Positions 10,813-20,512 of a DNA stretch of 50,419 nt are shown piece after piece. Source of the DNA: [Mycobacterium] crassicus. GTDB taxonomy: Bacteria; Actinomycetota; Actinomycetes; Mycobacteriales; Mycobacteriaceae. Position numbers and translations under genes: made by a program. The DNA lies in contig NZ_CP084029.1 of NCBI RefSeq assembly GCF_020181615.1, positions 2,274,353 to 2,324,771 on the forward strand. The letters are read 5' to 3'. The notes beneath the pieces were generated by a model. The model worked only from the letters and a program-made list of their open reading frames with translations. It was not told the DNA's origin and made no database searches. Within the stretch, counting starts at the first letter, position 1. Each line of letters opens with the position of its first letter.

Positions 10813-10853
10813 AGGGCCGACCGTAGGTGCCCGCTACCCCGCAGGAGTCTTCC

Positions 10854-13703
<2,850 letters not shown>

Positions 13704-13811
13704 GCTGCACCGCGCGCAAACGCGCAAAAATAAGCTAAATCTCATTTAAAAAGGGATTTCGGCTTATGGTGACCTCATCCGTTACATGGCGCGGATCACA
13801 AAGGAGAGGTC

Positions 13812-16031
13812 ATGCAGCAACTCACGCTCCGTCCCTACCTGACCGCGGGAATCGCCGTGGCGGGCGCCGGCATCATCGCCGTCACTCCGGTCGCGCCGGT
13901 GATGCCGCTGCCGGCCGTAGCCGGCGCTGAGTTCCACGCGGTGCAGCTGACCGATGCCTGGTCCGATCTGTTCACCCACACCATGGCGAACGTGAACAGC
14001 ATCAATGCCAACACCGACTGGACGGCGATCTCGGGGGTGTTCGGCAAGCTGTTCACCGACCCGTTCGGGGTGATCAGTGCGTTCACCAGCATCACCCCGA
14101 CCGTCACCAGCGACATCTCCGGTCTGCCGGCAACGGTCTCGGTGCAGCTGCCGCCGGGGCTCGAACTGGCGATCGCCAGCATGGGCGCGCAGGCGCTGAC
14201 CTCTCAGGCGATCAGCAACGCCGCGGCGGATATGGCCGGCGGAAACTGGGCCGGCCTGTTCAACGCCCCGGCGTCCATCGCCGACGCCTACCTCAACGGG
14301 GCGCAGAACGTCAGCCTGCTCGGCGGCATCATCAACATTCCGGTGCTCAACGGTGTGCTCGCGCCGGTGCAGAACCTGGAAGTGGACCTCAATCTGGCCA
14401 AGCTGCTGGACGCCCTCGGTCTGAGCAACCTGGATCTGAGCAACCTCAACGTGGGCGAACTGCTGGACCAGCTGGGGCTGGGCACGCTGACCCTGGGTGG
14501 CCTGCTCAGTGAGCTGGGGATCAGCGACGACGGGTTGGGCGACCTGCTGAAGGACGGTCTTGGCATCTCCAGCCTGGGCGGGCTGTTGGGCTTCCTCGGT
14601 CTGGGCAACCTCGGGTTGGGCAGCTTCGGGCTGACCGACGTCTTGAACGGACTGGGCCTCGACACCGGGGTCGACCTGAACAGTCTGTCGCTCAGCAGCG
14701 TGCTGAGCGCGTTCGGTATCGACCCGACGTCGCTGCTGTCGCCGGCCAGCCTGCTGGGACTGCTGGGTCTGGACCCGTCGAATGCGGTGTCGTCGACCAT
14801 GCTCAACAGCGTGCTCGGCTCGCTGGGGCTCGACCCGACCGGCGCGGTGTCGGCCGGGGTGGTGAACAGCCTGTTGAGTTCACTGGGACTGGATCCGAGC
14901 AGCACGATCTCGGCGAGCACGGTGACCGACCTGCTGAACTCACTGGGTCTGGATGCCGGCAGCCCGCTGACGCCGGGCGTGATCAGCAGTCTGCTGGGCG
15001 GGCTGGGGCTCGACCCGACCACGCCGGTGTCGACCACGGTGCTCAACTCGCTGCTCGGTTCGCTGGGGCTGGACACCACGAGCACGGTGTCGGCCAGCAC
15101 GCTGCTCAGTCTGCTCGGGCTGGGGGCGGGCGATGCGCTACCCGGTGGCGGCACCGCGATCAGTTTGCTCAGCGCCGCACTCGGAGGGGTGCTGAGCGCT
15201 TTCGGCGTTCCGGCCGGATCGATAACGGGGCTCGTGTCGACTCTCATCAACAGCCTCGGCCTCCTGGGCATAACGCCCACCGCCCCGTCCATCGGGGGCC
15301 TGCTGGGCGGTCTGTTCACCGCACTGGGTATCACGCCCAACAGCCTGGGTCTCGGCAGCCTGCTGAACGGCCTGGGGCTCTCGACGAGCGGCCTGACCAT
15401 CGGCGGCCTGCTGAACGATCTGGGACTGTCCGGTACCGGTACGACGATCGGTGACCTGCTCGGGAGTCTGGGGCTGAACGGCAGCGGCCTGACCGTCGGC
15501 GATCTGCTCAACGACCTCGGCTCCACGCCCGGTGGGTTGACCATCGGCGGCCTGCTCGGTGACCTGGGCCTCAACGGTGGCGGCCTGACGGTCGGCGGTC
15601 TGCTGAGCGACCTGGGCCTGTCGTCGACCAGCCTGACACTCGGTGGCCTGCTCAGCGACCTGGGCATCGTGCCCGGTCAGGACCTGACAGTCGGCGGAGT
15701 GCTGGAGGCGCTGGGCTTCCCGGCTTCTACCGGTGACCTCTCGCTGAGCGGCCTGCTCGGCGGGCTGGGTCTCGGCGGTCTCGACATCACCGGCCTGCTC
15801 AACGGACTGGACCTGGGCGGCCTGATCAGCGGTCTCGGGTTGGACAACCTGCCGCTGAACCTCGGCGACCTGGTCGGTGACCTGTCGAACCTGAACCTCG
15901 CCGACCTGCTCAACGACCTCGGCCTGGGCAACATCGACCTGGCGAACATCGGCGTCGGCTCGTTCGGCGGGATGATCACCCAGCTGTTCGAGGTGGTGCC
16001 GCAGCAGATCCTGGACGCGCTCGGCGTCTAG
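13812..16031 (+). CDS. Large exported Gly/Leu-rich protein with two classes of tandem repeats
   Basis: I do not recognise this 739-residue protein from the equivalent M. tuberculosis locus. It begins LRPYLTAGIAVAGAG followed by AVTPVAPV, a signal-peptide-like start seen in several mycobacterial secreted or surface proteins. A non-repetitive region runs to about residue 180. Residues 284-437 are 20-residue repeats, five of them uninterrupted (321-420), with the pattern DPxxxVSxxxLxxLLxSLGL. Residues 512-656 are about nine shorter repeats, mostly 16 residues, with the pattern LTIGGLLxDLGLxxGG. The tail ends QILDALGV. There are no cysteines in the repeats and no catalytic motif. AAAGGAGAGGTC precedes the ATG, a strong ribosome-binding site. 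It could be a cell-wall or outer-membrane protein of PE-PGRS-like character, but it has no PE domain. Confidence 0.85.
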   Translation: MQQLTLRPYLTAGIAVAGAGIIAVTPVAPVMPLPAVAGAEFHAVQLTDAWSDLFTHTMANVNSINANTDWTAISGVFGKLFTDPFGVISAFTSITPTVTSDISGLPATVSVQLPPGLELAIASMGAQALTSQAISNAAADMAGGNWAGLFNAPASIADAYLNGAQNVSLLGGIINIPVLNGVLAPVQNLEVDLNLAKLLDALGLSNLDLSNLNVGELLDQLGLGTLTLGGLLSELGISDDGLGDLLKDGLGISSLGGLLGFLGLGNLGLGSFGLTDVLNGLGLDTGVDLNSLSLSSVLSAFGIDPTSLLSPASLLGLLGLDPSNAVSSTMLNSVLGSLGLDPTGAVSAGVVNSLLSSLGLDPSSTISASTVTDLLNSLGLDAGSPLTPGVISSLLGGLGLDPTTPVSTTVLNSLLGSLGLDTTSTVSASTLLSLLGLGAGDALPGGGTAISLLSAALGGVLSAFGVPAGSITGLVSTLINSLGLLGITPTAPSIGGLLGGLFTALGITPNSLGLGSLLNGLGLSTSGLTIGGLLNDLGLSGTGTTIGDLLGSLGLNGSGLTVGDLLNDLGSTPGGLTIGGLLGDLGLNGGGLTVGGLLSDLGLSSTSLTLGGLLSDLGIVPGQDLTVGGVLEALGFPASTGDLSLSGLLGGLGLGGLDITGLLNGLDLGGLISGLGLDNLPLNLGDLVGDLSNLNLADLLNDLGLGNIDLANIGVGSFGGMITQLFEVVPQQILDALGV
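14661..15122 (+). repeat. Coding repeat array A: 20-residue (60-base) units
   Basis: The units begin at residues 284, 304, 321, 341, 361, 381, 401 and 421 of the exported repeat protein. Most are exactly 20 residues; those at 304 and 421 are 17. Each ends in LGL, LGI or FGI and nearly all begin with Asp. DNA identity between units is partial, so the array is old or diversifying rather than freshly duplicated. Confidence 0.85.
15345..15779 (+). repeat. Coding repeat array B: about 16-residue (48-base) units
   Basis: The units start at residues 512, 528, 544, 560, 576, 592, 608, 625 and 643 of the same protein. Six are exactly 16 residues and the last three vary from 14 to 18. The core GGLLxDLGL recurs in nearly every unit. 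About four looser 14-residue units continue toward the C-terminus. Confidence 0.85.
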
Positions 16032-16056: not shown

Positions 16057-18180
16057 TCAGCCCAGCAGGGTGGTCAGGGCGCCGGCCAGTTCGGGGGAGT
16101 TCGCTCCGCGCAGGTTCTGGTAGGTGCCGCCGGACAGCTGGGCAACCGACTGCCAGGTCGCCCGGTCGGCGTCGGCGCCGAAGTCGATGACGTTGACCGC
16201 GACCGGGCGCTCGGGGTCGGTGTTCGCCCGGATGAAGTCCTGCAGTCCGGGGCCATCCAGGGTCCGGTCGGTGTGCGGTCCGGCCGTGATGATCAGCACC
16301 GAATTGCTATGCCCGGCAACGTAACCGGCCAGCGCCTGGGTGTAGACCAGGCGCAGTGTGGTGAACGAAACCGCGCCACCGGACGTCGAGCTCAGGGCGT
16401 CGAGCTCACTGGTCAGGGTCTCCGCCCGGGCCGTGCCGTTCACCTGGTCGTCCAATGGGCCGGCCGAGACCACGTTGCGTCCCTCCGTGCCGTCGAAGGT
16501 CCACAGACCGACGGTTGCGTTCGGCGGCAGGGCCTTGATGCGCTGATCCAGGGCTGCGATCACGTGGGCCAACCGGGTCTTGCCACCCTCGTCGGTGGTC
16601 ATGGACTGATCGAGCATGAGCGTCACCGCCGAACGGCCCGGCAGTGTGGTGAGAGCGTTGGCCAGGGCGGCTCGCGTCGCGTCGTCGCCCACCGCCAAGG
16701 TGTCTGACACCGCCGGGAATGAGGTGACGTCGCTGGTCGGCGCCGTGACACCTTCCACCCGGAATCCGGCCTTGGCCAGTTCGGCCAGCTGGTCGGGCTT
16801 GCGGGCGAATCGGGCGAATTCGCTGGCGGCGCTGACCTGCTCCTGAGACAGCCATGAGCCGGCGAGCAACACGGTCGGGTAGTCGGCAACGGCCACCGGC
16901 CCCGGCGGCAACCAGGAGGCCAGCGTGCCGGCCGGGTCCGACAGCGACTGGCCACGGGTGAACAGTTGCTGCTCGGTGGTCACCACCGCATGTACCGGCG
17001 CGCCCGCCGGATCCCCTTGACGTAGCAGGACGTTCAGCGCTTCGGCCAACGAATTGTCGGTCAGCTTGGGTTGTGCGGCGACCAGTCGGTGCACCGCCCC
17101 GGTCCCCTCGGTGACGGGGGCTCCCTTGGGGGCGGCGGCAGCGGCCACCGCCTCACCGGCCAGGAATGCGGCGTCGCCGTTGCCGCCGATCGGCAGCGCC
17201 AGCCGCAACGGTCCCCAGCCGGCCAAACCGAGCCGGCCCAGTCCGTCCGGCTCAGACTGCAGGTCCGGCAGCGCTGCCCAATTCTGGTGCTGCAGCGCGG
17301 TACTGAGCTCGGGGCGAATCGCCAGCAGTACCGGCGACGTCACCAGCGACCGACTGTCGCTGACGGTTTCTGCGCCGGCGGAAGCCTGCAGTCGGGCCGC
17401 CGAAACCGAGCTGCCCGGCACCCAGAGCGCTGGGCGCTGGCCGAGTTGCGCCGGCCAGTCGCCGATGAATCCGCTCACGACCGCATCGGGATCCACCGGC
17501 TTGACCTGAACCGAAACGCAGCGATCGCCGACCGGCTTAGCGGTCTTGTTGAACCGGTCGGCGAAGCCCTGTAGGTGATCGGCGATAGACGGGTCGGCGA
17601 CGACGGCGACCGTCAGATCGCCGTGTGCGCAGGTCCCAGCCGCGTCGGCGGAGCGATGCGACAGCGAGTTACCGAAGAAACGCCACAGGATCACCGTGCC
17701 GACCAACACGATCACCGCGACGAGGGCGGCGATCACGCCGACGCTGACACCGCGGCGTCCCGAGTCGTTGCGGTGCCGGCGCCACCGGTCGAGGTCGCGG
17801 TGGCCGCCGCGCGGCTCGTCCCGCTCGGGTGCCGAAGATCCTTCATCGACGCGGCCGATGGCACCGAAAGGCCCGGTGCGGTAACGAGATTCCTCGTCGA
17901 GCTCACCGCCGCGACGCATGTATTGCGCCGGGTCCGCGTCGTCAAGGCCCGCGTCGTATCCGGCGTCGTCGTATCCGGCATCGTGATATCCGGCATCGCC
18001 ACCATCGGGAAACGGCTCGTCGTAGAACGCGTCGTGATAGTCGTCGACGTAGTCGTCGTCGTCCGGGTCCCCGAAGCCGTACAGATCGGGCCCGTCGGAG
18101 AAGTGGCTCCCGTCGGGCTCGCCGCCCCCCAGCGGCTCGTCGTCGAAATCGTCCGGACCGGGGAAACTGTGCCTACCCAC
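16057..18180 (-). CDS. Membrane-anchored VWA-domain protein with substrate-binding-like region (Rv1836c-like)
   Basis: The 707-residue protein has an acidic low-complexity N-terminus (about 1-135) rich in Asp, Gly and Tyr. One membrane segment follows near 145-168, and a long extracytoplasmic part. The first extracytoplasmic section resembles a periplasmic-binding fold (start CAHGDLTVAVVADPS). The C-terminal part from about 515 is a von Willebrand A domain, with the metal-site-like LMLDQSMTT near 520. Here the third ligand of the DxSxS site is Thr. It is likely an envelope protein that binds a partner through a metal site; the partner is unknown. It starts at a GTG with GGAGAGGA upstream. glcB lies 69 bases upstream on the same strand. 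Confidence 0.87.
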   Translation of the reverse strand: MGRHSFPGPDDFDDEPLGGGEPDGSHFSDGPDLYGFGDPDDDDYVDDYHDAFYDEPFPDGGDAGYHDAGYDDAGYDAGLDDADPAQYMRRGGELDEESRYRTGPFGAIGRVDEGSSAPERDEPRGGHRDLDRWRRHRNDSGRRGVSVGVIAALVAVIVLVGTVILWRFFGNSLSHRSADAAGTCAHGDLTVAVVADPSIADHLQGFADRFNKTAKPVGDRCVSVQVKPVDPDAVVSGFIGDWPAQLGQRPALWVPGSSVSAARLQASAGAETVSDSRSLVTSPVLLAIRPELSTALQHQNWAALPDLQSEPDGLGRLGLAGWGPLRLALPIGGNGDAAFLAGEAVAAAAAPKGAPVTEGTGAVHRLVAAQPKLTDNSLAEALNVLLRQGDPAGAPVHAVVTTEQQLFTRGQSLSDPAGTLASWLPPGPVAVADYPTVLLAGSWLSQEQVSAASEFARFARKPDQLAELAKAGFRVEGVTAPTSDVTSFPAVSDTLAVGDDATRAALANALTTLPGRSAVTLMLDQSMTTDEGGKTRLAHVIAALDQRIKALPPNATVGLWTFDGTEGRNVVSAGPLDDQVNGTARAETLTSELDALSSTSGGAVSFTTLRLVYTQALAGYVAGHSNSVLIITAGPHTDRTLDGPGLQDFIRANTDPERPVAVNVIDFGADADRATWQSVAQLSGGTYQNLRGANSPELAGALTTLLG
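17950..18003 (-). repeat. 15-base tandem repeat encoding DAGYD-type pentapeptides
   Basis: Three to four imperfect 15-base units encode DAGYH, DAGYD, DAGYD and DAGLD at residues 62-81 of the VWA protein. The exact register and near-identical spelling suggest slippage. The repeat lengthens the acidic cytoplasmic N-terminus ahead of the membrane segment. Confidence 0.7.
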
Positions 18181-18249: not shown

Positions 18250-20463
18250 TCAGACGCCCGCCCGGGCCTTGAACTCACGGCGGCGCCGGTGCAGGATCGG
18301 CTCGGTGTAGCCGTTGGGCTGCGAGGTGCCCGACAGGATCAATTCCCGCGCCGCGGCGAACGCGATGCTGGAGTCGAAATCCGGTGCCATCGGCAGGTAA
18401 TTGGGGTCGCCCTCGTTCTGCCGATCCACTGCCGGGGCCATCCGCTCCAGGCTGGACTGCACGTCGTCCTCGGTGATGACCCCGTGCCGCAACCAGTTCG
18501 CCAGCAGCTGAGACGAGATTCGCAGAGTGGCACGGTCTTCCATCAGCGCGACGTCGTGGATGTCGGGAACCTTCGAACAACCCACACCCTGATCGATCCA
18601 GCGCACCACGTAGCCGAGGATCGACTGGCAGTTGTTGTCGACCTCCTCGCGGATCTCGTCGGGCGCCCAGGCCAGCCCCTCCGACAGCGGGATGGTCAAC
18701 AGCGCATCGATTGTCGCGCGCCGCTTTCCAGCCAGTTCCTGCTGCACCTCGGCCACGTCGACCTGGTGGTAGTGCATCGCGTGCAGGGTGGCGGCGGTGG
18801 GTGAGGGCACCCACGCGGTGCTGGCGCCGGCCCGCGGGTGGCCGATCTTCTGGGTGACCATGTCAGCCATCAGATCGGTCATCGCCCACATGCCCTTGCC
18901 GATCTGGGCGTGGCCGGGCAAACCGGTAGCCAGGCCCGCATCGACGTTGTTGTCCTCGTAGGCCAGGATCCACGGCTGGGATTTCATGGTGGCCTTGCGG
19001 ACCATCGGCCCGGCCTCCATCGAGGTGTGGATCTCATCTCCGGTGCGGTCCAGGAATCCGGTGTTGATGAACGCCACCCGGTCGGAGGCGGCCTTGATGC
19101 ACGCCCGCAGGTTGACGGTGGTGCGCCGCTCCTCGTCCATGATGCCGATCTTGAGGGTGGCCGGCGGCAGGCCCAGGAGATCCTCGACCCGGCTGAACAG
19201 CTCGCCGGTGAAAGCCACCTCGTCGGGACCGTGCATCTTGGGCTTGACGATGTAGATCGACCCGGTGCGACTGTTGACCAGCGGCCCGTTGCCGTCGGAG
19301 GCGGTCAGGCCGTGCATGGCGATCAGGCCGGTGAACAGTGCGTCCTGAATGCCCTCGGGCACTTCTGCGTCCTCGGCCCCGGCCGCGCTGAACACAATGG
19401 CGTCGTTGGTCATCAGGTGGCCCACATTGCGGACGAACATCAGGCTGCGGCCCGGCAGGGTGAGCGTGCCCCCGTCAGGGGTGGTGAACTCCCGGTCGGC
19501 CGCCAGGGTGCGGGTGAAGGTCTTGTCGCCCTTGCGGACCTCTTCGGACAGGTCGCCGCGGTTGAGGCCGAGCCAGTTGCGGTAACCGAGCACCTTGTCG
19601 TCGGCGTCGACGGCGGCCACCGAGTCCTCGAAATCCATGATCGTGGTGACCGCGGACTCGAGCACCACGTCCTTGATCCCCGCGGCGTCGGTCGACCCGA
19701 TCGGCGAGGACGGATCGATCAAGATCTCGATGTGCAGCCCGTGGTGGGCCAGCAGCACCGCCGACGGTGACTCGGCGTCCCCGGTGTAGCCGACGAACTC
19801 CGCCGGTCCCGCGACCGTGGTCTGCAGTCCGTCGCCCAGCGTGATCGCCAGCTGGCCGTCGTCGACCGCGAAGCTCTGGACCTCGGTCCAGGCGCCGTTG
19901 GCCAGCGGCACAGCGTCGTTGAGGAACTTGCGCGCGTAGGCGATCACCTTGTCGCCGCGGACTGAGTTGTATCCGGCGGTGTATCCGGCCGGCACCTTCT
20001 CGGCGCCGTCGTCCTCGCTGATCACGTCGGTTCCGTACAACGCGTCGTAGAGCGAACCCCAGCGCGCGTTGGCGGCGTTGAGCGCGAACCGGGCGTTGAG
20101 GACCGGGACGACCAGCTGCGGGCCGGCCTGCACGGCGATCTCGTCGTCGACGCCGGCGGTGGTGACGGTGAAGTCCGCCGGTTCGGGCAGCAGGTAGCCG
20201 ATCTCGGTGAGGAAGGCGCGGTACGCCTCGGTGTCCAGCGGCTCGATCACCCGGTGGCGATGCCACTTGTCGATCTGCGCCTGCAGGTCGGCACGGCGGG
20301 CCAGCAGCTCGGCGTTCTTGGGAGCGAGATCGGTGACGACCTTGTCCACGCCGGCCCAGAAGGTGTCCGGGTCCACGCCGGTTCCCGGCAGCGCCTCGTC
20401 GGTGATGAAGTCGTACAGCACGCGGGCCACCCGCAAATCGCCCACCGACACGCGGTCAGTCAT
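18250..20463 (-). CDS. glcB: Malate synthase G
   Basis: GlcB condenses glyoxylate with acetyl-CoA to malate, the second step of the glyoxylate shunt. The 737-residue product has normal length for the G isoform. The catalytic arginine segment FVRNVGHLM (Arg near 345) and the general-base segment [11 protein letters not shown] (Asp near 643) are intact, as is [13 protein letters not shown]. The start is the ATG at 20463, preceded by GGGAGGAAA; an ATG 15 bases upstream would remove that spacing. It probably has its own promoter and may read into the VWA gene 69 bases downstream. Confidence 0.96.
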
Positions 20464-20512
20464 GGTTTCCTCCCTCATAGCCGATCTACCACCTTACCGG
20501 CCGACAGCGTTG

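Follow-up and report, generated by a model that had tools for sequence, protein, structure and literature searches.

A Leu/Gly repeat protein beside mycobacterial gcvB, from a patchily distributed family, with conserved ends and a variable center

The repeat gene and its neighbors

The window, by which we mean the whole 50,419-nucleotide stretch of DNA that was analyzed, comes from a Mycolicibacter-group mycobacterium and encodes a Leu/Gly repeat protein between gcvB and a convergent gene. The gene, its parts, and its neighbors are arranged as follows.

10827..13703, + strand: gcvB, glycine dehydrogenase, the left neighbor (Pfam GDC-P)
13800..13809, + strand: Shine-Dalgarno-like AAAGGAGAGG, just 5' of the start codon (from the sequence)
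13812..16031, + strand: Leu/Gly repeat protein open reading frame, 739 aa, ATG start (ORF call, orthologs, constraint)
13812..13928, + strand: leader-like segment, residues 1-39 (LRPYxTAG...AVAGA), common to paralogs and GjpA-family proteins; cleavage site placed by eye
13947..14411, + strand: N-terminal domain, residues 46-200, predicted helices and strands (AF2; homology with four long paralogs)
14382..14660, + strand: irregularly spaced core units, residues 191-283 (lag and core analysis)
14661..15122, + strand: 20-residue array, residues 284-437 (lag 20)
15123..15344, + strand: stretch between the arrays, residues 438-511, with cores at 460, 478, and 501 (core analysis)
15345..15779, + strand: 16-residue array, residues 512-656 (lag 16; TRF period of 48 bp)
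15780..16028, + strand: conserved C-terminal region, residues 657-739, with a predicted strand (709-718) and helix (721-736) (AF2; ortholog comparison)
16057..18180, - strand: solute-binding/VWA-like protein, the convergent right neighbor (Pfam SBP_bac_11, 25.4 bits; cut-off 25)
18250..20478, - strand: malate synthase G, glcB (Pfam)

The frame looks protein-coding and under constraint, with a whole-gene pN/pS of 0.22 between two orthologs (L084 and L085). Its G+C content (0.678) is near that of the window (0.687), so nothing about its composition suggests a recent foreign origin. By eye the N terminus is leader-like, being hydrophobic at about residues 9 to 24 and carrying AVAGA at 35 to 39. 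This agrees with the signal-peptide-like start of the original prediction, and the protein is probably exported. For the right neighbor, VWA models in Pfam reached 20.4 bits against a cut-off of 27. At the far left, positions 1 to 92 of the window are a run of C (92 bases at 95% in the TRF report), which may be an artifact of sequencing or assembly.

Both predicted repeat arrays are real. Self-identity in residues 284 to 437 peaks at lag 20 (0.455 versus 0.144 in shuffled sequence, z 10.9) and again at lag 40, and that in residues 512 to 656 peaks at lags 32 and 16 (lag 16: 0.473 versus 0.195, z 8.5), each array being compared with 300 shuffles. They had been described as two distinct repeat classes; we find that both are built on one 11-residue core, [ST]hxxLLxxLGL, with differing linkers. 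When aligned on this core, the 20-mer consensus VLNSLLGSLGLDPTSTVSAG and the 16-mer consensus of the TINGG type, TIGGLLNDLGLSGGGL, differ in linker length. Core starts lie 20 apart across residues 314 to 414, with a 17-residue step on each side, and 16 apart across residues 501 to 613, followed by a 17-residue step; outside the arrays the core recurs at spacings of 14 to 34. Residues 191 to 739 contain 28 matches to the expression [LIVM][LIVMF]xx[LFMI]G[LIVFSM] (mean 2.6 and maximum 8 in 1000 shuffles), a count that is descriptive because the expression was written after this protein had been inspected, and residues 1 to 190 contain none. The 515 residues from 191 to 705 comprise 147 Leu, 108 Gly, and 36 Asp, together with 3 Glu, 2 Lys, and no Arg. 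At the DNA level, TRF reported the 16-residue array at a period of 48 bp with 69% matches, and again at 96 bp, along with a small 15-bp array located at 14594-14633; it did not report the 20-residue array. With DNA repeats this diverged, or unseen by TRF, the arrays did not arise by fresh slippage.

No recognized family accounts for the protein, as originally suggested. Neither Pfam nor NCBIfam gave a match over cut-off, and a PDB sequence search gave none. When Pfam was searched at E values up to 10, only DUF348 (PF03990) was listed, at residues 604 to 624; its 19.1 bits fall below the 24-bit gathering cut-off, and we reject membership. PE-PGRS proteins are Gly-rich mycobacterial proteins thought to be exported, and UniRef gives that name to some orthologs, for which no Pfam domain is listed. 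The window protein is likewise Gly-rich; it differs by its Leu/Gly core, and the same Pfam search returned no PE or PGRS match. We therefore reject a PE-PGRS identity for lack of the PE domain and PGRS repeats, which suggests that the label is wrong for those UniRef members. The protein likewise falls short of the score for the GjpA family (NF033942, "outer membrane porin GjpA"): an NCBIfam search with the window protein gave no hit at E values up to 10, and in a genome search with NF033942 the protein scored 24.1 bits, over GjpA positions 1 to 58, against a curated cut-off of 100. Judged by these sequence searches, the Leu/Gly repeat family is uncharacterized and has no domain model.

Distribution and variation at the gcvB site

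Orthologs match in 25 of 396 genus genomes at E 1e-30, the window's own included; these searches scored two candidates per genome and thus register presence, not copy number. In 24 of the 25 the gene is flanked by gcvB and the VWA-like gene within 1.5 kb. The predicted insertion beside gcvB is borne out in that the site is occupied in some mycobacteria only (24 of 396 genomes). The gene runs with gcvB in 19 of the 24 and against it in five (G030, G205, G207, G355, and G403; loci L015, L096, L097, L100, and L103). Two genomes have two side-by-side copies at the site: G085 (L094/L108) and G146 (L095/L107). The exception among the 25, G298 (L104), has a 166-aa frame that matches residues 89 to 239 only, in a flank without gcvB or the VWA-like gene. 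Named carriers include Mycolicibacter sp. MYC017 and MYC123 and M. acidiphilus, as well as M. terrae and others by source name. The VWA-like gene itself was present in all 60 genus genomes searched. Of 30 loci around it (from 30 of the 60 genomes), four carry the repeat gene. Among the 26 loci without a match, about 90 bp or less separates gcvB from the VWA-like gene in three, other DNA lies between the two in 12, and gcvB does not appear in the flank covered in 11.

The gene comes in two lengths. A long form of 737 to 755 aa (739 in the window) occupies the site in six of the 24 genomes, and a shorter form in 18 (13 were read, at 518 to 610 aa; the other five have open frames measuring 548 to 619 aa); for seven of the 24 (G016, G022, G089, G094, G242, G348, and G387), length and strand come from separate locus reads. 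Cores counted with a similar expression number 23 to 28 in long forms and 10 to 16 in shorter ones. The original prediction proposed searching mycobacterial genomes for the GGLLxDLGL-type repeat, and repeat number does differ between species. By position and protein, MYC017 corresponds to G308 and MYC123 to G366; because the two encode the same repeat protein, they do not count as separate cases. M. acidiphilus L035, P0011, P0013, and P0014 also have the long form.

The N- and C-terminal regions are conserved, and the center varies between species. Among 28 sequences compared with the window protein segment by segment, the short form P0001 is the closest over residues 46 to 283 (223 of 238 identical; 216 of 238 for the long form L087, from MYC123) and matches 99 of 115 residues over 625 to 739, where L087 is closer (106 of 115). 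P0001 is without most of the arrays, and 27 of 154 residues are identical in the 20-residue array. Across six aligned long forms, many LLxxLG positions are invariant. No segment of any pair computed reaches a pN/pS of 1; to L084, L085, and L086 the ratio is 0.68 to 0.78 in the 20-residue array versus 0.34 to 0.39 in the N-terminal domain.

Synonymous divergence among long forms is mosaic. To L087 (G366), dS is 0.22 and 0.19 in the N and C flanks versus 0.70 and 0.58 in the arrays, where the MYC017/MYC123 units may be aligned out of register. To M. acidiphilus (L035) the flanks stand at 0.50 and 0.52 versus 0.23 in the 20-residue array; the 16-residue array, at 0.53, is not below the flanks. 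Trees of the flanks group the window protein with MYC017, and trees of the arrays group it with M. acidiphilus. No single segment rejected the other tree (AU 0.094 to 0.148). Concatenated flanks rejected the array tree by AU (0.048), with no rejection by SH (p 0.42), and concatenated arrays rejected the flank tree by AU (0.029), with no rejection by SH (p 0.39). We regard this as modest evidence that the central arms have recombined between backbones; out-of-register alignment of repeats could contribute to the pattern.

Paralogs, GjpA-family genes, and ligase-like neighbors

The gene is not a one-off. Besides the orthologs elsewhere, there are four long paralogs in the same genome (4.87 Mb in one contig), arranged as two neighboring pairs (L002/L003 and L006/L009), and shorter proteins that match the window protein mainly over the leader. 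Like the window protein, the long paralogs have the leader, the N-terminal domain, and the LLxxLG core, over about 530 to 590 residues. An HMM of the mature N-terminal domain (residues 44 to 200) finds all four at E 3.9e-27 to 1.9e-18, and the core expression matches 8 to 14 times in each (shuffle means 1.4 to 1.6, maxima 6). Their cores are mostly 14 and 18 apart, whereas those of the window protein are 20 and 16 apart. In three of the four the strongest signal is a 32-residue super-period (z 6.2, 8.0, and 11.2), and L002 peaks at 14 (z 5.0). Paralog L009 has matches in 19 of the 396 genomes, and 17 of these also belong to the 25 with an ortholog of the window gene. These comparisons indicate that the window gene is one member of an uncharacterized, patchily distributed repeat-protein family.

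Nine genes of the genome exceed the NCBIfam GjpA cut-off. The eight GjpA proteins extracted are 354 to 395 aa, about half the length of the window protein; they have the LRPYxTAG... leader in common with it and may be weakly alike in parts of the N-terminal domain. A comparison of the mature N-terminal part with a GjpA profile built from eight of the nine gave a probability of 90.7% (E 1.3e-6), versus 0.1% and 0.4% for two reversed controls. Searched with the N-terminal domain HMM, the GjpA proteins were marginal: the best reached E 7.5e-4 and the second 0.011, and three of the eight, at E 0.31 to 0.45, did no better than the best reversed decoy (0.23).

The long paralogs sit at two other sites, beside fatty-acyl-AMP-ligase-like genes. 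Six of the seven closest ligase-like matches (56 to 100% identity to the query, itself one of the seven) have a GjpA-family or long-paralog gene within 2.5 kb. Random placement of seven gave a mean of 0.13 adjacent and a maximum of three in 20000 trials; this significance is overstated because the seven were picked by identity once the adjacency was known, such a site had supplied the query, and genes in clusters do not count independently. Among all 12 ligase-like matches, six are within 2.5 kb. The window gene has no such neighbor, the nearest ligase-like gene being 79 kb away. The clusters of ligase-like and GjpA or paralog genes lie at 3.70-3.74 and 4.59-4.67 Mb of the genome (G000; L069, L070, L113, and L114). 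By eye, similar ligase neighbors adjoin the paralog pair of G016 (L110) and, in G022, one pair out of two (L112). Large Gly-rich, leader-bearing proteins also adjoin GjpA or paralog genes: one in the same genome (L115, 4909-7512) matches Pfam PGRS (PF21526), a second of 2139 aa (L070, 894-7316) has no match, and a third (L116, 8407-11010) was judged by eye.

Predicted structure and interpretation

The AF2 model of the window protein (47 sequences: 44 of the 120 listed among 259 homologs found, the window protein, and two loci) has a mean pLDDT of 60.8 and a pTM of 0.32. In 10-residue means, pLDDT is 68 to 83 for residues 51 to 160, 60 to 74 for 161 to 200, 43 to 69 in the arrays, 67 to 68 in the C-terminal strand, and 78 to 80 in the C-terminal helix. 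The original prediction envisaged a solenoid or an amyloid-like stack. AF2 places one helix of 7 to 10 residues in each array unit, at low confidence, which lends no support to the amyloid-like stack; a solenoid may still apply. Apart from the C-terminal strand, strands of at least three residues occur only in the N-terminal domain, which makes these its likely partners. The 518-aa ortholog P0010, modeled with 111 of the 120 listed homologs, reached a mean pLDDT of 71.9 and a pTM of 0.40, with 75 to 90 over residues 51 to 200, 73 to 83 in the strand at 488 to 497, and 84 to 89 in the last helices; two further strands appear at 300 to 304 and 383 to 387. Foldseek searches of the PDB with the two models, each folded as a whole chain and of low to middling confidence, returned nothing at E 0.001.

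We tentatively favor, at somewhat less than even confidence, an exported protein of the cell envelope in which a repeat arm can be exchanged on a fixed base. The leader would take the protein across the cytoplasmic membrane. Based on the two AF2 models, the base probably consists of the N-terminal domain (46 to 200) folded together with the C-terminal strand and helix, both ends being conserved. Residues of about 200 to 700 would form the arm, a chain of [ST]hxxLLxxLGL units, each predicted to be a short helix plus linker. Species differ in this arm: repeat number changes, and the center can be shorter and of different sequence. Recombination may move arms between backbones, as the mosaic divergence modestly suggests. 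Because the arm is rich in Leu and Gly and almost without positive charge, we think that it is not an enzyme but either packs into or onto the lipid-rich outer envelope or acts at the envelope surface, as a spacer or by binding something.

Three other readings draw on the same observations. The variable center between conserved ends, the mosaic pattern, and the higher pN/pS of the 20-residue array would also suit a surface adhesin or antigen in which selection, either for binding partners or for escape from immunity or phage, drives variation of the arm. We consider this unlikely, though a serious contender, given that pN/pS stays below 1 in all segments of all pairs and that Pfam and NCBIfam show no known adhesin domain over cut-off. 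The low AF2 confidence in the arrays means that the arm may be partly disordered, and together with the empty Foldseek search it could point to a low-complexity secreted protein whose arm has no fixed fold and whose repeats drift. However, the invariant LLxxLG positions in six long forms, pN/pS below 1, and DNA repeats that are not fresh slippage products make such drift rather improbable.

The shared leader, the profile match of the N-terminal part, and the nine GjpA-family genes in the genome raise a further reading, a GjpA-like protein that forms channels in the outer membrane, with its repeats lining or extending the pore; that GjpA forms channels we presume from the family name. We judge this quite improbable, because the NCBIfam search was empty and the NF033942 score far under its cut-off, the N-terminal domain HMM was marginal on GjpA proteins, and AF2 gives short helices and no barrel.

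Returning to the envelope protein with a base and an arm, a broader proposal can be made, which we regard as doubtful yet worth stating. The Mycolicibacter group and some related mycobacteria may have an undescribed modular envelope family, with a fixed N/C base and a helical Leu/Gly arm swapped between species as a cassette at one fixed site next to gcvB, whose wider membership would, with fatty-acyl-AMP ligases, build or modify a lipid layer of the outer envelope. If true, mycobacterial envelope research would gain a family with a defined repeat core, length variants, and sites lacking the gene, along with a connection at the genome level between proteins bearing the leader and lipid-activating enzymes.
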